A stretch of 64,000 bases of DNA, taken from the NCBI GenBank assembly GCA_025934775.1, contig JAICWO010000005.1, forward strand, positions 1 to 64,000, written 5' to 3'. Every line of letters starts with the position of its first letter. Within the stretch, counting starts at the first letter, position 1. Position numbers and translations under genes: made by a program. The stretch comes from Gemmatimonadaceae bacterium (GTDB lineage: Bacteria; Gemmatimonadota; Gemmatimonadetes; Gemmatimonadales; Gemmatimonadaceae). The notes beneath the pieces are model-generated. The model made no database searches and was not told where the DNA came from. It worked only from the letters and a program-made list of their open reading frames with translations. This document shows, in pieces, positions 22,424 through 36,101 of this stretch.

Positions 22424-22452
22424 TTGCCATTAGGGGGTAACGCAGCTACCTT
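22424..22452 (+). promoter_or_regulatory. Promoter of the infA leader
   Basis: A -35 hexamer TTGCCA (22424-22429), a 17-base spacer and a -10 hexamer TACCTT (22447-22452) lie 5 bases upstream of the conserved leader. The promoter at the second leader copy has the same geometry (TTGCAA, 17 bases, TAGGTT, then 6 bases). This suggests that transcription begins within the conserved GAG at the leader's 5' end. Confidence 0.6.
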
Positions 22453-22457
22453 CATAA

Positions 22458-22534
22458 GAGCGACACACGCGCCGAGCGCGTGGACAAGTTCCGAGTGTCA
22501 TTGGGGCCTGCCGAATTGCGAGCAGGCCCTTTTT
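22458..22534 (+). ncRNA. Conserved 77-nt leader RNA with attenuator terminator (infA copy)
   Basis: The element begins GAGCGACACACGCG. Hairpin 1 (22466-22482) has 7-bp arms CACGCGC and GCGCGTG around loop CGA. A single-stranded linker follows, containing GTTCCGA. The terminator hairpin (22504-22529) has arms GGGCCTGC and GCAGGCCC and is followed by five T (22530-22534). The infA start codon is 67 bases downstream, so readthrough is needed for expression. About 70 of 77 positions match the copy before cspA (36066 to 35990, minus strand). In hairpin 1 the loop-closing C-G pair of this copy becomes U-G in the other, preserving the fold. It could be a cis attenuator, a free small RNA, or both. 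Confidence 0.75.
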
Positions 22535-22601
22535 GCGTTCTGTCGCACCGCGATCGCGGGAACGCTGCTGGCGTGCACGACGCCACCTTTAAACAATCGT
22601 C

Positions 22602-22820
22602 ATGAAAGAAGAAGCAATCGAAGTCGAAGGCGTGGTCGCCGAAGTCCTGCCGAGCGCGTTGTTTCGCGTGACGCTGTCCAACGGACATCAGCTCCTGGCC
22701 ACGGCCGCCGGGAAGATGCGGAAATTTCGCATTCGCATCCTCGCGGGCGATCACGTGACGGTCGCGATGTCGCCGTACGACCTCGCCCGAGGACGCATCA
22801 CCTTTCGACACAAGACCTGA
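22602..22820 (+). CDS. infA: Translation initiation factor IF-1
   Basis: This 72-residue complete OB-fold protein matches IF-1 throughout: [40 protein letters not shown] and [18 protein letters not shown]-1 binds the ribosomal A site during initiation, and in E. coli also has RNA-melting and antitermination activity and is cold-induced. The gene is not in a ribosomal-protein operon here; it stands alone behind the leader attenuator. No good Shine-Dalgarno is visible before the ATG. Two small hairpins (GCGTTC/GAACGC and GGCGT/ACGCC) lie between terminator and start codon. It is probably co-transcribed with the next small gene. Confidence 0.95.
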
Positions 22821-22830
22821 GGAGGCAACG

Positions 22831-23076
22831 ATGATCGAGATGCCAGCGCACGTGACCACCCGTTGGATCGCCACGCTCGGCCCCGACCAGCTCGTGGCGG
22901 CAGAGGCGCAGCTCTACTCGACATTTCATGTGCACGAGACGGCCGAGAAGTCCCGCGCGGGGACGCGGTACATGTTGCTGCAAGGGCCGACCGAGCTCGT
23001 GAACGCGTGGCAGCAGTGGGTGCTCGTGAACAACGAAGCGCGCGCACGCGGCGTGGTCATCCGGCGTTCGAGGTAA
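22831..23076 (+). CDS. Small uncharacterised protein co-transcribed with infA
   Basis: This 81-residue soluble protein lies 10 bases after infA with a perfect AGGAGG ribosome-binding site. It has no recognised domain. It is mixed alpha/beta with no membrane segment and a basic C-terminus (ARARGVVIRRSR). Because infA itself lacks a clear ribosome-binding site, this gene may be translated more efficiently. Co-transcription implies that it also falls under the leader attenuator. A role in cold or stress adaptation is only an inference from position. Confidence 0.7.
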   Translation: MIEMPAHVTTRWIATLGPDQLVAAEAQLYSTFHVHETAEKSRAGTRYMLLQGPTELVNAWQQWVLVNNEARARGVVIRRSR

Positions 23077-30825: not shown

Positions 30826-33446
<2,621 letters not shown>

Positions 33447-33636
33447 GCTCGAGCCAAGTTACTCAAAGCCGCGCGCCTCGGCAACGAAACGCCGGCGATT
33501 CCGCCGCGCCGCGGCCGAGCACGCTCGCCGGGGCGTGTACCGAATGCGCAGCCGCGGAGCGGACACGCCGAGGCACGGCGGGTGCACTGTCGCGGAGCGA
33601 CACGGCCATACACTCACGCCATCGACCGCCGACTTC

Positions 33637-34476
33637 ATGCCTTCGCTCGACGCTCCCTCTGACGCGCCCGTGCGCGTTCCGGAGATCACGATCTACTTCT
33701 GGATCGTCAAGATCCTCACCACCGGCGCCGGCGAGGCGATCTCCGATTCGCTCGCCCACATCAATCACGCGTTGGCCGCGGGCGTCGGCGGCGTGGGACT
33801 CATCATCGCGCTCGTGATCCAATTCCGGATCCGGCGCTATCTCGCGTGGACGTACTGGTTCGCCGTGTTGATGGTCGCGATCTTCGGCACGATGGCCGCC
33901 GACGTCGTCCACGACGGGCTGCACATCGGGTATCTCACATCGACGAGCGTCTTCGCCGTGGCGCTGCTCGTGATTTTCGTGTGGTGGCACCGCGGCGAGC
34001 ACACGCTCTCGATCCACAGCATCACGACGCGGCGGCGCGAGGTGTTCTACTGGGCGACGGTGATCGCCACGTTCGCGCTCGGCACGGCGGCCGGCGACAT
34101 GACCGCGGATACGTTCGGCTGGGGCTACCTGCGGTCCGGGATCGTGTTCGCCGTGATCATCGCGCTCGTCGGCATCGTGTATTATCTCGTCGCGCGCAAC
34201 ACGCCGCGCGAGCGGCGCTACGACGCCACGTCGACCGTGGCCGCGTTCTGGTTCGCCTACATCCTCACGCGGCCGCTTGGCGCGTCATTCGCCGACTGGT
34301 TCGGCAAGCCGCACGAGAAGACGGGCCTCGGCTACGGCGACGGCACCGTCGGTCTGGTGATGCTGGCGGCGATCGTGATCGTCGTCGCGTTCCTCGCGGT
34401 CACCAAGGTCGACGTCCCGGACGAGAACGGGCGCCTGCCGGAGCAGGCGCTGATGGCCGAGCGTGCGCCGCTATGA
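33637..34476 (+). CDS. COG4705-like multispanning membrane protein
   Basis: This 279-residue protein has about seven to eight transmembrane helices. It contains three near-repeats of a K/F-T-x-GEAxSD type motif: ILTTGAGEAISD (about 26-37), GTMAADVVHD (about 86) and ALGTAAGDMTAD (about 150), plus ILTRPLGASFADW near the end. This repeated acidic pattern is typical of the uncharacterised COG4705 membrane family. Function is unknown; the regularly spaced Asp and Glu residues within helices suggest cation handling. It is divergent from thiC and its 3' end overlaps the rpsU stop by 6 bases. Confidence 0.75.
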   Translation: MPSLDAPSDAPVRVPEITIYFWIVKILTTGAGEAISDSLAHINHALAAGVGGVGLIIALVIQFRIRRYLAWTYWFAVLMVAIFGTMAADVVHDGLHIGYLTSTSVFAVALLVIFVWWHRGEHTLSIHSITTRRREVFYWATVIATFALGTAAGDMTADTFGWGYLRSGIVFAVIIALVGIVYYLVARNTPRERRYDATSTVAAFWFAYILTRPLGASFADWFGKPHEKTGLGYGDGTVGLVMLAAIVIVVAFLAVTKVDVPDENGRLPEQALMAERAPL

Positions 34477-34677
34477 GCGCGCCGGACGCTTGCCGCGCTC
34501 GGCTTTGTTGCGCGCGCGGCGCGCGGCCTTCGACTTGAGCTGGCGGGCCTCGCTCGGCTTGACGTAGTGCCGGCGGCGGCGGAGCTCGCGAAGGATGCCG
34601 GACTTCTGCACCTGGCGCTTGAACGCCTTGAGCGCCCATTCGATGCGGTCGGTTTCGTCGAGTCGAATTTCAGTCAT
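34471..34677 (-). CDS. rpsU: Small ribosomal subunit protein bS21
   Basis: This 68-residue, very basic protein matches bS21: LDETDRIEWALKAFKRQVQKSG, then RRRRHYVKPSEARQLKSK and an Arg/Lys-rich tail. bS21 sits near the 30S platform and anti-Shine-Dalgarno region and assists initiation. It starts 17 bases after the desaturase gene with AGGA upstream, so it is the third gene of the cspA operon, although the AT-rich gap could hold its own promoter. Confidence 0.93.
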   Translation of the reverse strand: MTEIRLDETDRIEWALKAFKRQVQKSGILRELRRRRHYVKPSEARQLKSKAARRARNKAERGKRPARS

Positions 34678-34694
34678 CTATCTATATCCTGTAA

Positions 34695-35711
34695 TTATCG
34701 ATTAATAATATCGCGAAACGCCACGAGCCGGTGGCGGTCTTCGTCCCAGAGCGCGAGCCGCAGCGCGGCCATGCCGGAGCGCGGCGTGACCACCGGCGAT
34801 CGCGCGAAGATGGGGCTCGCGTCGTGGCAGGATTGCAGCCGGTAGTTGGGAATGCGCGGCGCCACGTGGTGCACGTGGTGCAGCCCGATGCTGCCCGTGA
34901 ACCACTGCAGCACGGCGGGCAGCCGGAGATGCGAGCTGCCGCGCAGCGCCGCGTCGACGTAATCCCACTCGTCGTGGGGCGCCCAGTACGCGTCCTCGAA
35001 CTGGTGCTGCACGTAGAACAACCACACGCCCGCCATCGCCGCGAGATAGTAGGGGAGCACGTAGGCGAAGAGCACCGACATCCACCCCACCGCCATGATG
35101 GCGATCGACAGCAGGACGACGATCGCGCCGTTGGTCCACCACACGCTCGCCACCTGCTTGCTGCCGGTCGCTTGGCCTTTCCCGCGCAGCCGTTGGCCGA
35201 GCATCAAGTGCACGGGGCCGCCAAGGAGGAGCGCGGCGGGATGGCGAATGATCCGGTAGCCCAGACGGGCGCGCGGCGACTTGGCGAGATACTCGCGCAC
35301 GGTCAGCGTGGGCACGTCGCCGTGGCCGCGGCGGTCGAGATCTCCCGACGACGCGTGGTGCAGCGCGTGATCGCGGCGCCATTGCGCGAACGGCGTCAAC
35401 GTGAGCACGCCGGTGATGAATCCCACCGCGTCATTCAGCGCACGCGAGGCGAAGAACGAGCCGTGCGCGCAGTCGTGCATGAGAATGAACGTGCGCACGA
35501 GCAGTCCGGCGGTCGGCAGCGCGAGGAGCGCCGCCACGAGCATCGACCAACGCAGCGTCAGATGAATCGCCGTGACGGACAGCAGCAGCAGGCCGAGCGT
35601 CGTGACGAGTTGAAATGACGCGCGCCGCGCGTCCGGGCCGGTGAACGGCTCGACCGCGCGGCGCCAGCTCACTCCCGCCGTGGATGCGGCGGGAGCGGCC
35701 GATTCGCTCAA
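34695..35711 (-). CDS. Membrane fatty-acid desaturase
   Basis: This 338-residue protein starts at TTG, overlapping the cspA stop by 4 bases (TTGA). It has four or more transmembrane helices and the three His boxes of membrane di-iron desaturases: HDCAH (79-83), HALHH (115-119) and HHVHH (278-282). It also contains QHQFED (235-240), as in acyl-lipid delta-12/omega-type enzymes. It should introduce double bonds into acyl chains and raise membrane fluidity, a classic response to cold. Coupling to cspA and the shared leader support cold regulation. Confidence 0.92.
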
Positions 35712-35920
35712 CGACCCAACTTGGTCACGTTCTCAGCGGCGGGGCCCTTCTGCCCCTGCACGATGTCGAACTCGACGCGCTCACCCTCGGTCAGCGACTT
35801 GTAGCCATTGCCCTGAATGGCGGAATGATGGACGAAACAATCCTTCTGTCCGTTCTCGGGCGTGATGAAGCCAAAGCCCTTCGAGTCGTTGAACCACTTC
35901 ACGGTGCCTGTCGTACGCAT
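35708..35920 (-). CDS. cspA: Cold shock protein, CspA family
   Basis: This 70-residue complete cold-shock domain contains RNP1-like [12 protein letters not shown]2-like DCFVHHSAI and the start [10 protein letters not shown]. Csp proteins bind single-stranded RNA and melt hairpins, and E. coli CspA homologues act as transcription antiterminators. The ATG at 35920 has GGGGTAGGA upstream. The 146-base leader contains the 77-nt attenuator element. It overlaps the desaturase gene by 4 bases, forming the operon cspA-desaturase-rpsU. Confidence 0.96.
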
Positions 35921-35987
35921 TGTCCTACCCCATGGTGTGATGTGCTGTGTTGCGAGTGTGCAACGTGCGGTACCGCCCGAGCGAAAC

Positions 35988-36066
35988 AAAAAAAGGGCCT
36001 GCTCGCAATTCGGCAGGCCCCAAGAACGTTCGGAACATGTCCACGCGCTCAACGCGTGTGTCGCTC
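35988..36066 (-). ncRNA. Conserved leader RNA with attenuator terminator (cspA copy)
   Basis: On the minus strand the element starts GAGCGACACACGCG at 36066. Hairpin 1 (36058-36042) has arms CACGCGT and GCGCGTG, the last pair being U-G, around loop TGA. GTTCCGA follows, then a 6-base segment that differs from the infA copy. The identical 34-base block from 36023 contains the terminator stem GGGCCTGC/GCAGGCCC (36020-35995), followed by seven T (35994-35988). The cspA start lies 67 bases downstream. Two weak hairpins (GCGGTACCGC; GTTGC/GCAAC) lie between. The position within a 146-base 5' leader parallels the regulatory 5' UTR of E. coli cspA, but the sequence is unrelated to it as far as I can see. 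Confidence 0.75.
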
Positions 36067-36072
36067 GATCCC

Positions 36073-36101
36073 AACCTAGCGCGTTGAGCCCCGTTTTGCA
36101 A
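36073..36101 (-). promoter_or_regulatory. Promoter of the cspA leader
   Basis: On the minus strand, -35 TTGCAA (36101-36096), a 17-base spacer and -10 TAGGTT (36078-36073) lie 6 bases before the conserved leader. Geometry and sequence parallel the infA promoter at 22424-22452. Confidence 0.6.

Follow-up and report, generated by a model that had tools for sequence, protein, structure and literature searches.

The window analysed here, a 64,000-nt stretch of a Gemmatimonadaceae genome (G000), contains two copies of a 77-nt element that lie ∼13.5 kb apart on opposite strands and are identical at 70 of 77 positions. Copy A (22458–22534, plus strand) precedes an infA paralogue encoding a 72-aa IF-1 (22602–22820, plus; PF01176, E 1e-23), which is followed by an 81-aa ORF without a Pfam match (22831–23076, plus). 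Copy B (35990–36066, minus strand) precedes a csp gene encoding a 70-aa cold-shock domain protein (35708–35920, minus; PF00313, E 9e-33), the first gene of a cluster that continues with a fatty-acid desaturase (34695–35711, minus; PF00487) and rpsU, encoding ribosomal protein S21 (34471–34677, minus; PF01165). The desaturase follows csp in relatives as well, and the 81-aa ORF is likewise found behind infA in many of them. A BLAST search of the whole genome aligns the two copies with 91% identity over 77 nt (E 3e-24). The first-pass annotation of this DNA had reported both copies with correct coordinates and strands, and its claim that they precede genes for OB-fold proteins is borne out by the Pfam matches. 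The genome holds two IF-1 genes, the second on contig C3, and six cold-shock-domain genes, another of which is preceded by a third copy of the leader, divergent but of the same architecture, on contig C42 (L152, 29626–29725, minus).

Each window copy starts 5–6 nt after a promoter of the form TTGCMA-17-TASSTT. For copy A this consists of TTGCCA (22424–22429), 17 nt and TACCTT (22447–22452; whole promoter 22424–22452, plus), and for copy B of TTGCAA (36101–36096), 17 nt and TAGGTT (36078–36073; whole promoter 36073–36101, minus). Within copy A, a hairpin that we call P1 (CACGCGC/GCGCGTG; 22466–22482, plus) shows double changes across relatives and overlaps by one base the conserved motif GGACAAGTTCCGA (22482–22494, plus), the first G of which is the last base of P1. 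This motif is mostly single-stranded and is a candidate recognition site. The copy ends in an intrinsic terminator, recognised from the sequence and its relatives, with stem GGGCCTGC/GCAGGCCC and U5 (22504–22534, plus); the terminator of copy B (35988–36020, minus) has the same stem followed by U7, and the start codons of infA and csp lie 67–69 nt past the terminator of their own copy. Both the equal promoter geometry and the shared terminator had been noted at first pass and are present in the sequence as described. A newly found helix, P0, joins the first bases of the element (GCGAYR) to bases just past the U-tract: GCGACA (22460–22465, plus) with TGTCGC (22541–22546, plus), immediately past the terminator, in copy A, whereas TCGCT (35980–35984, minus) can pair with AGCGA (36065–36061) in copy B. 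A strict promoter and terminator scan of the window flagged neither copy's site, because its loop limit was 8 and its promoter rule was E. coli-like; conservation across species supports the view that the promoter and terminator of both copies are real.

Sixteen copies recovered by BLAST of relatives were aligned (A1) and used to build a covariance model (R1), which scores copy A at 100.9 bits (E 3.5e-23) and copy B at 98.7 bits (E 1.4e-22). R1 finds matches in 60 of the 179 genomes of the window's family, and the element is not a product of chance; in a sample of 298 genomes from the phylum, it also matches two genomes of the next family. The collected copies number 77 in 62 genomes, all Gemmatimonadota by database kinship, although these copies share descent and their counts overstate independence. 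A scan for the exact pattern in 84,980 species genomes, in which we estimate that about two chance matches would be expected, returned 36 places, 33 of them true by R1. Three candidates outside the phylum (L094, L100 and L111) fail R1 and were rejected as copies. Nearly all of the 33 carry titles naming Gemmatimonadota, Gemmatimonadetes, Gemmatimonadaceae or Gemmatimonas, the exceptions being an untitled 'bacterium' and one Kuenenia title, whose positions and scores match those of G114 and G124 from the window's family. The latter case, a metagenome-assembled genome titled Candidatus Kuenenia stuttgartiensis (L105, CALQGY020000088.1), carries a Gemmatimonadota leader that agrees with G124 in contig position and score, and the genome's title or binning is probably wrong.

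Across 67 non-redundant copies, the promoter retains TTG at 95–100%, the adjoining C at 79% and the −10 pattern TAnnnT at 95–98%, with a spacer of 17 in 49 copies and the −10 usually 4–7 nt upstream of the element. The RNA is thus predicted to begin at the element, from a promoter immediately upstream, as would be expected of an attenuator. In 43 non-redundant relatives, P1 shows changes on both sides at six of its seven pairs, with 93% of cells paired, and in the GGACAWGUUCCGA stretch between P1 and the terminator 12 of 13 positions are at least 90% conserved, eight of them being invariant. The measures for the structure as a whole were reached by none of 500 shuffles and by no slid control. 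In near relatives the terminator stem hardly varies and so shows little covariation of its own; compensated changes appear in far copies (GGAGCCUG/CAGGCUCC in G034 and GAGGCCCAGC/GCUGGGCCUC in G239). This GC-rich hairpin with its U-tract ahead of the start codon is again what an attenuator is predicted to carry.

Helix P0 is exemplified by CGGUGAA/UUCACCG in G026, by GCGAUACA/UGUAUCGC in G127 and by the perfect 8-bp helix of the C42 copy (AGCGACGC/GCGUCGCU). It has double changes at three of six pairs and 71% of cells paired, and is weaker than P1 partly because the alignment past the U-tract is uncertain. In paired cells, double-changed cells and covariation score it lies above every shuffle and slid control, with 24 double-changed cells compared to 11.6 ± 3.7 in the shuffles and at most 10 in the slid controls. 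The compensatory changes in P1 and P0 indicate that the element is a conserved structured RNA.

Directly after the element and on the same strand, tblastn with the window's proteins finds csp at 61 of the 77 copies. The csp start lies at a median of 139 nt past the end of the match, usually 121–147 nt after the U-tract and, in 56 of these 61 cases, 115–150 nt after it. From six csp genes in 4.9 Mb, we estimate that chance would place a correctly oriented csp start within 150 nt of about one position in 10,000. Other copies precede IF-1 (G000, G183, G147 and G148), an IF-1 remnant with the 81-aa ORF (G032a), a desaturase (G005a and G145), receiver-domain proteins (G001c, G024 twice and G068'), a DEAD-box helicase (G139; PF00270, E 4e-50), an unnamed protein of 178–185 aa (G069, G022 and G059') and one unassigned gene (G005d). 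Judged by these identities, the genes behind the element appear to be a cold-shock gene set. The first-pass annotation had proposed a search of relatives for matches before csp, infA and other cold-related or RNA-binding genes and for covarying stems; that search was positive, and in relatives the leader common to csp and infA proved to be conserved, with covarying stems and an intrinsic terminator. In G139 (L056), the RNA helicase gene starts ∼15 nt after the U-tract of a divergent copy. The family of 178–185 aa proteins recurs after the element at L032, L057 and L063, and the one member checked has no Pfam match.

In most csp genes, the element forms the first half of a bipartite leader of ∼220 nt. 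The second domain, which lies downstream of P0, contains CCC-N-UCGUGA-GGG...UCACGA and GUCGG...CUCCGAC, followed by GGAG before the start codon. The first of these sequences makes two stems with 84% and 98% of cells paired, which would be either interlocked like an H-type pseudoknot or mutually exclusive. CUCCGAC can pair with GUCGG in 79% of cells and with the Shine-Dalgarno in 90%, the latter with A-U, G-C and G-U at one position. R2, a model of the second domain, matches 70 of the 298 phylum genomes and extends into other families and orders of the class. For the 49 R2 matches with a poor R1 score or none, a terminator-like hairpin is found upstream in 40, mostly at 7–65 nt, compared to 24% of shuffled sequences with such a hairpin. 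At nine divergent loci, the best match of unfiltered R1 (weak, 17–27 bits) falls just upstream of R2 in nearly all; at L126 it lies farther upstream than at the other loci tested. The C42 copy has the full second domain, whereas copy B has a shortened one and copy A has none, indicating that the 77-nt element can exist alone. The second domain is also absent from the non-csp copies as far as seen.

Three possible roles for the conserved motif were considered and rejected. A leader peptide read as GTG-GAC-AWG-TTC-CGA fails because several relatives no longer have the GTG (CACGGAC, GCGCGGAC) and linker lengths vary, so that no reading frame persists. CAAGUUC might pair with the terminator loop, GAAUUG, but this loop varies while the motif is constant, and AUG variants break the pairing. 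In csp leaders GUUCC could pair with the Shine-Dalgarno or with GUCGG, yet copy A retains the motif and has neither GGAG nor the second domain. The G147 and G148 leaders (L061 and L073) have CCUCC in place of GUUCC, fully complementary to the IF-1 Shine-Dalgarno GGAGG, and on this evidence the site may sometimes pair with the Shine-Dalgarno.

Gene order in relatives suggests how infA came to lie behind the element. There, infA and csp are members of one gene cluster: a single contig (C92) of the sister genome G001 reads leader-csp-desaturase-leader-csp-rpsU-infA-ORF81, and in G030, G184, G026 and much of genus g22, infA lies 0.3–1.1 kb behind csp on the same strand. The window instead has leader-csp-desaturase-rpsU and leader-infA-ORF81 as separate units, 13.5 kb apart and on opposite strands. 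The best explanation of this order is that a tandem leader-csp-rpsU-infA cluster lost its csp and was then rearranged. In G183, from another genus, infA also directly follows the leader, where its relatives have csp in between. In G145 (L022), all that is left of csp, ∼126 nt after the element, is its first seven codons. These now run in frame into the desaturase, which has thereby taken over the leader and start of csp.

We interpret the element, with a probability of roughly 0.6, as the 5' section of a leader RNA that would act in cis and control a cold-shock gene set by transcription attenuation. The element itself, its promoter, P1, the terminator, P0 and the gene association are supported by comparison. 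In the proposed mechanism, RNA synthesis would begin at the element and P1 would fold, leaving GGACAWGUUCCGA largely unpaired, and the GC-rich hairpin and U-tract would stop a share of transcripts at ∼77 nt. Polymerase would pass in response to a factor, either bound at the motif or working on the hairpin, or else to low temperature as such. After passage, the 5' end would pair beyond the terminator to form P0 and the full mRNA would be made, with translation then tuned by the second domain in most csp leaders. By polymerase passing or stopping at the leader, the cell would probably raise or lower the expression of an entire set of cold-response genes. We infer, as parts of this model, that transcripts terminate in vivo, that the signal is cold and which factor is involved.

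Within the 77 nt we recognised no antiterminator helix, no conserved leader reading frame and no aptamer-like domain. No conserved, covarying helix is exclusive with the terminator, which counts against the attenuation model; the sole conserved alternative beside it, GUUCC/GGGGC, depends on two G-U pairs and shows no covariation. Relief by a bound factor or by temperature is therefore likelier than a classical RNA-only switch. Antiterminator structures are typical of RNA-only attenuators, and an attenuator relieved by a protein need not have one. The likeliest relieving factor would be an OB-fold RNA chaperone, Csp and/or IF-1, which would make cold induction self-reinforcing. Relief of the terminator by Csp or IF-1, which the first-pass annotation had proposed along with joint switching of infA and csp, is plausible by analogy with E. 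coli, where CspA, CspC, CspE and IF-1 antiterminate at intrinsic terminators (PMC3017892, PMC11648934), leader terminators are bypassed in vivo with CspD (PMC9765468) and cold increases IF-1, for which there is a cold-shock transcript (PMC6511841, PMC9947658). A broader version of the attenuation model is more tentative, and we hold it as a possibility that leans towards doubtful: a portable leader would hold together a phylum-wide cold-shock set, Csp and IF-1 would open their own terminator by binding at GGACAWGUUCCGA, and the helicase, desaturase and receiver genes would have joined by acquiring or inheriting a copy.

The two exclusive pairings of CUCCGAC raise the question of whether the RNA senses temperature directly, with read-through and Shine-Dalgarno access set by temperature alone and without a protein, as in the E. 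coli cspA mRNA (PMC9947658, PMC6386945). We consider this unlikely as a full account because a single-stranded motif so nearly invariant is presumably recognised by something, the second domain leaves unexplained copy A and the other non-csp copies that lack it, and a GC-rich terminator is expected to be more stable in the cold. The confidences placed in the rival readings overlap, because the first domain could act as an attenuator and the second as a thermosensor in one and the same leader. It is also improbable, in our judgement, that Csp binding strengthens termination, which would make the leader an attenuator with negative feedback, holding csp down once Csp is plentiful. B. subtilis CspB and CspD mostly favour termination, at several sites (PMC8307031), whereas several assays show E. 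coli Csps acting as antiterminators (PMC9765468, PMC11648934), and the sequence itself does not fix the sign of control.

An independent small RNA, whose gene would end at the terminator while csp and infA were transcribed from another promoter, would account for the element's own promoter, compactness and strong terminator, with the conserved single-stranded stretch as a possible seed. This reading is quite unlikely in view of P0, which covaries and joins the 5' end to bases past the terminator. P0 is possible only in RNA that has passed the terminator, and its conservation argues that the read-through RNA is a product under selection and that the element is where the csp mRNA starts. The near-constant distance from U-tract to csp, the position of nearly all copies just upstream of same-strand protein genes and the retention of a terminator at the same place in divergent csp leaders also speak against a small RNA. 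Some genomes have several copies on different contigs, but a dispersed repeat or mobile element lying near these genes by accident is extremely improbable given the 61 of 77 copies directly before csp, their constant orientation and distance, the promoter and the covarying stems.

The leader of this gene set, probably an attenuator, is undescribed. In Rfam 15, the leaders have no match at gathering score, only sub-threshold noise, in agreement with the initial view that the sequence belongs to no described RNA family. The cspA thermoregulator family, RF01766, scores 31–61 bits when the csp coding sequence is included (gathering score 78) and does not match the leader alone; these weak matches come from the coding sequence and are gone once it is left out. 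RF01766 resembles the Gemmatimonadota leader in having a long structured csp 5' leader with alternative pairing around the Shine-Dalgarno, and to our knowledge an intrinsic terminator in the leader is not part of that family. The E. coli cspA mRNA behind the RF01766 thermoregulator was reportedly described by Giuliodori and colleagues in 2010.

Other known systems share single features with the element. The E. coli Csp-sensitive terminators (metY-rpsO, gdx, thiM, tna and baxL; PMC9765468, PMC11648934) are likewise intrinsic terminators placed before genes and are bypassed when Csp is abundant, but their leaders are not those of csp genes and are mutually different RNAs, whereas in Gemmatimonadota one element serves csp and its partners. 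The cold-shock boxes in the 5' UTRs of B. subtilis cspB and cspC (PMC8307031) are also conserved and affect expression; the element described here was found in Gemmatimonadota only. Transcription-attenuation leaders and terminator riboswitches have the same order of promoter, structured leader, intrinsic terminator and gene, but the element differs from them generally in having no recognised ligand aptamer, leader peptide or antiterminator helix. In the open-access literature, we found no description of such a leader in Gemmatimonadota and no study of cold-shock control in the phylum. The element represents a previously undescribed RNA family whose set of targets is clear, and it joins three facts that are separate in E. 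coli, namely csp leaders, antitermination by Csp and IF-1 and the cold induction of IF-1. With one element before both csp and IF-1, antitermination by these proteins becomes directly testable as regulation of their own genes. The only Rfam 15 match at gathering score in the window lies elsewhere, a TPP riboswitch (RF00059, 62.6 bits; 33349–33452, minus) just upstream of a thiC-like ORF.
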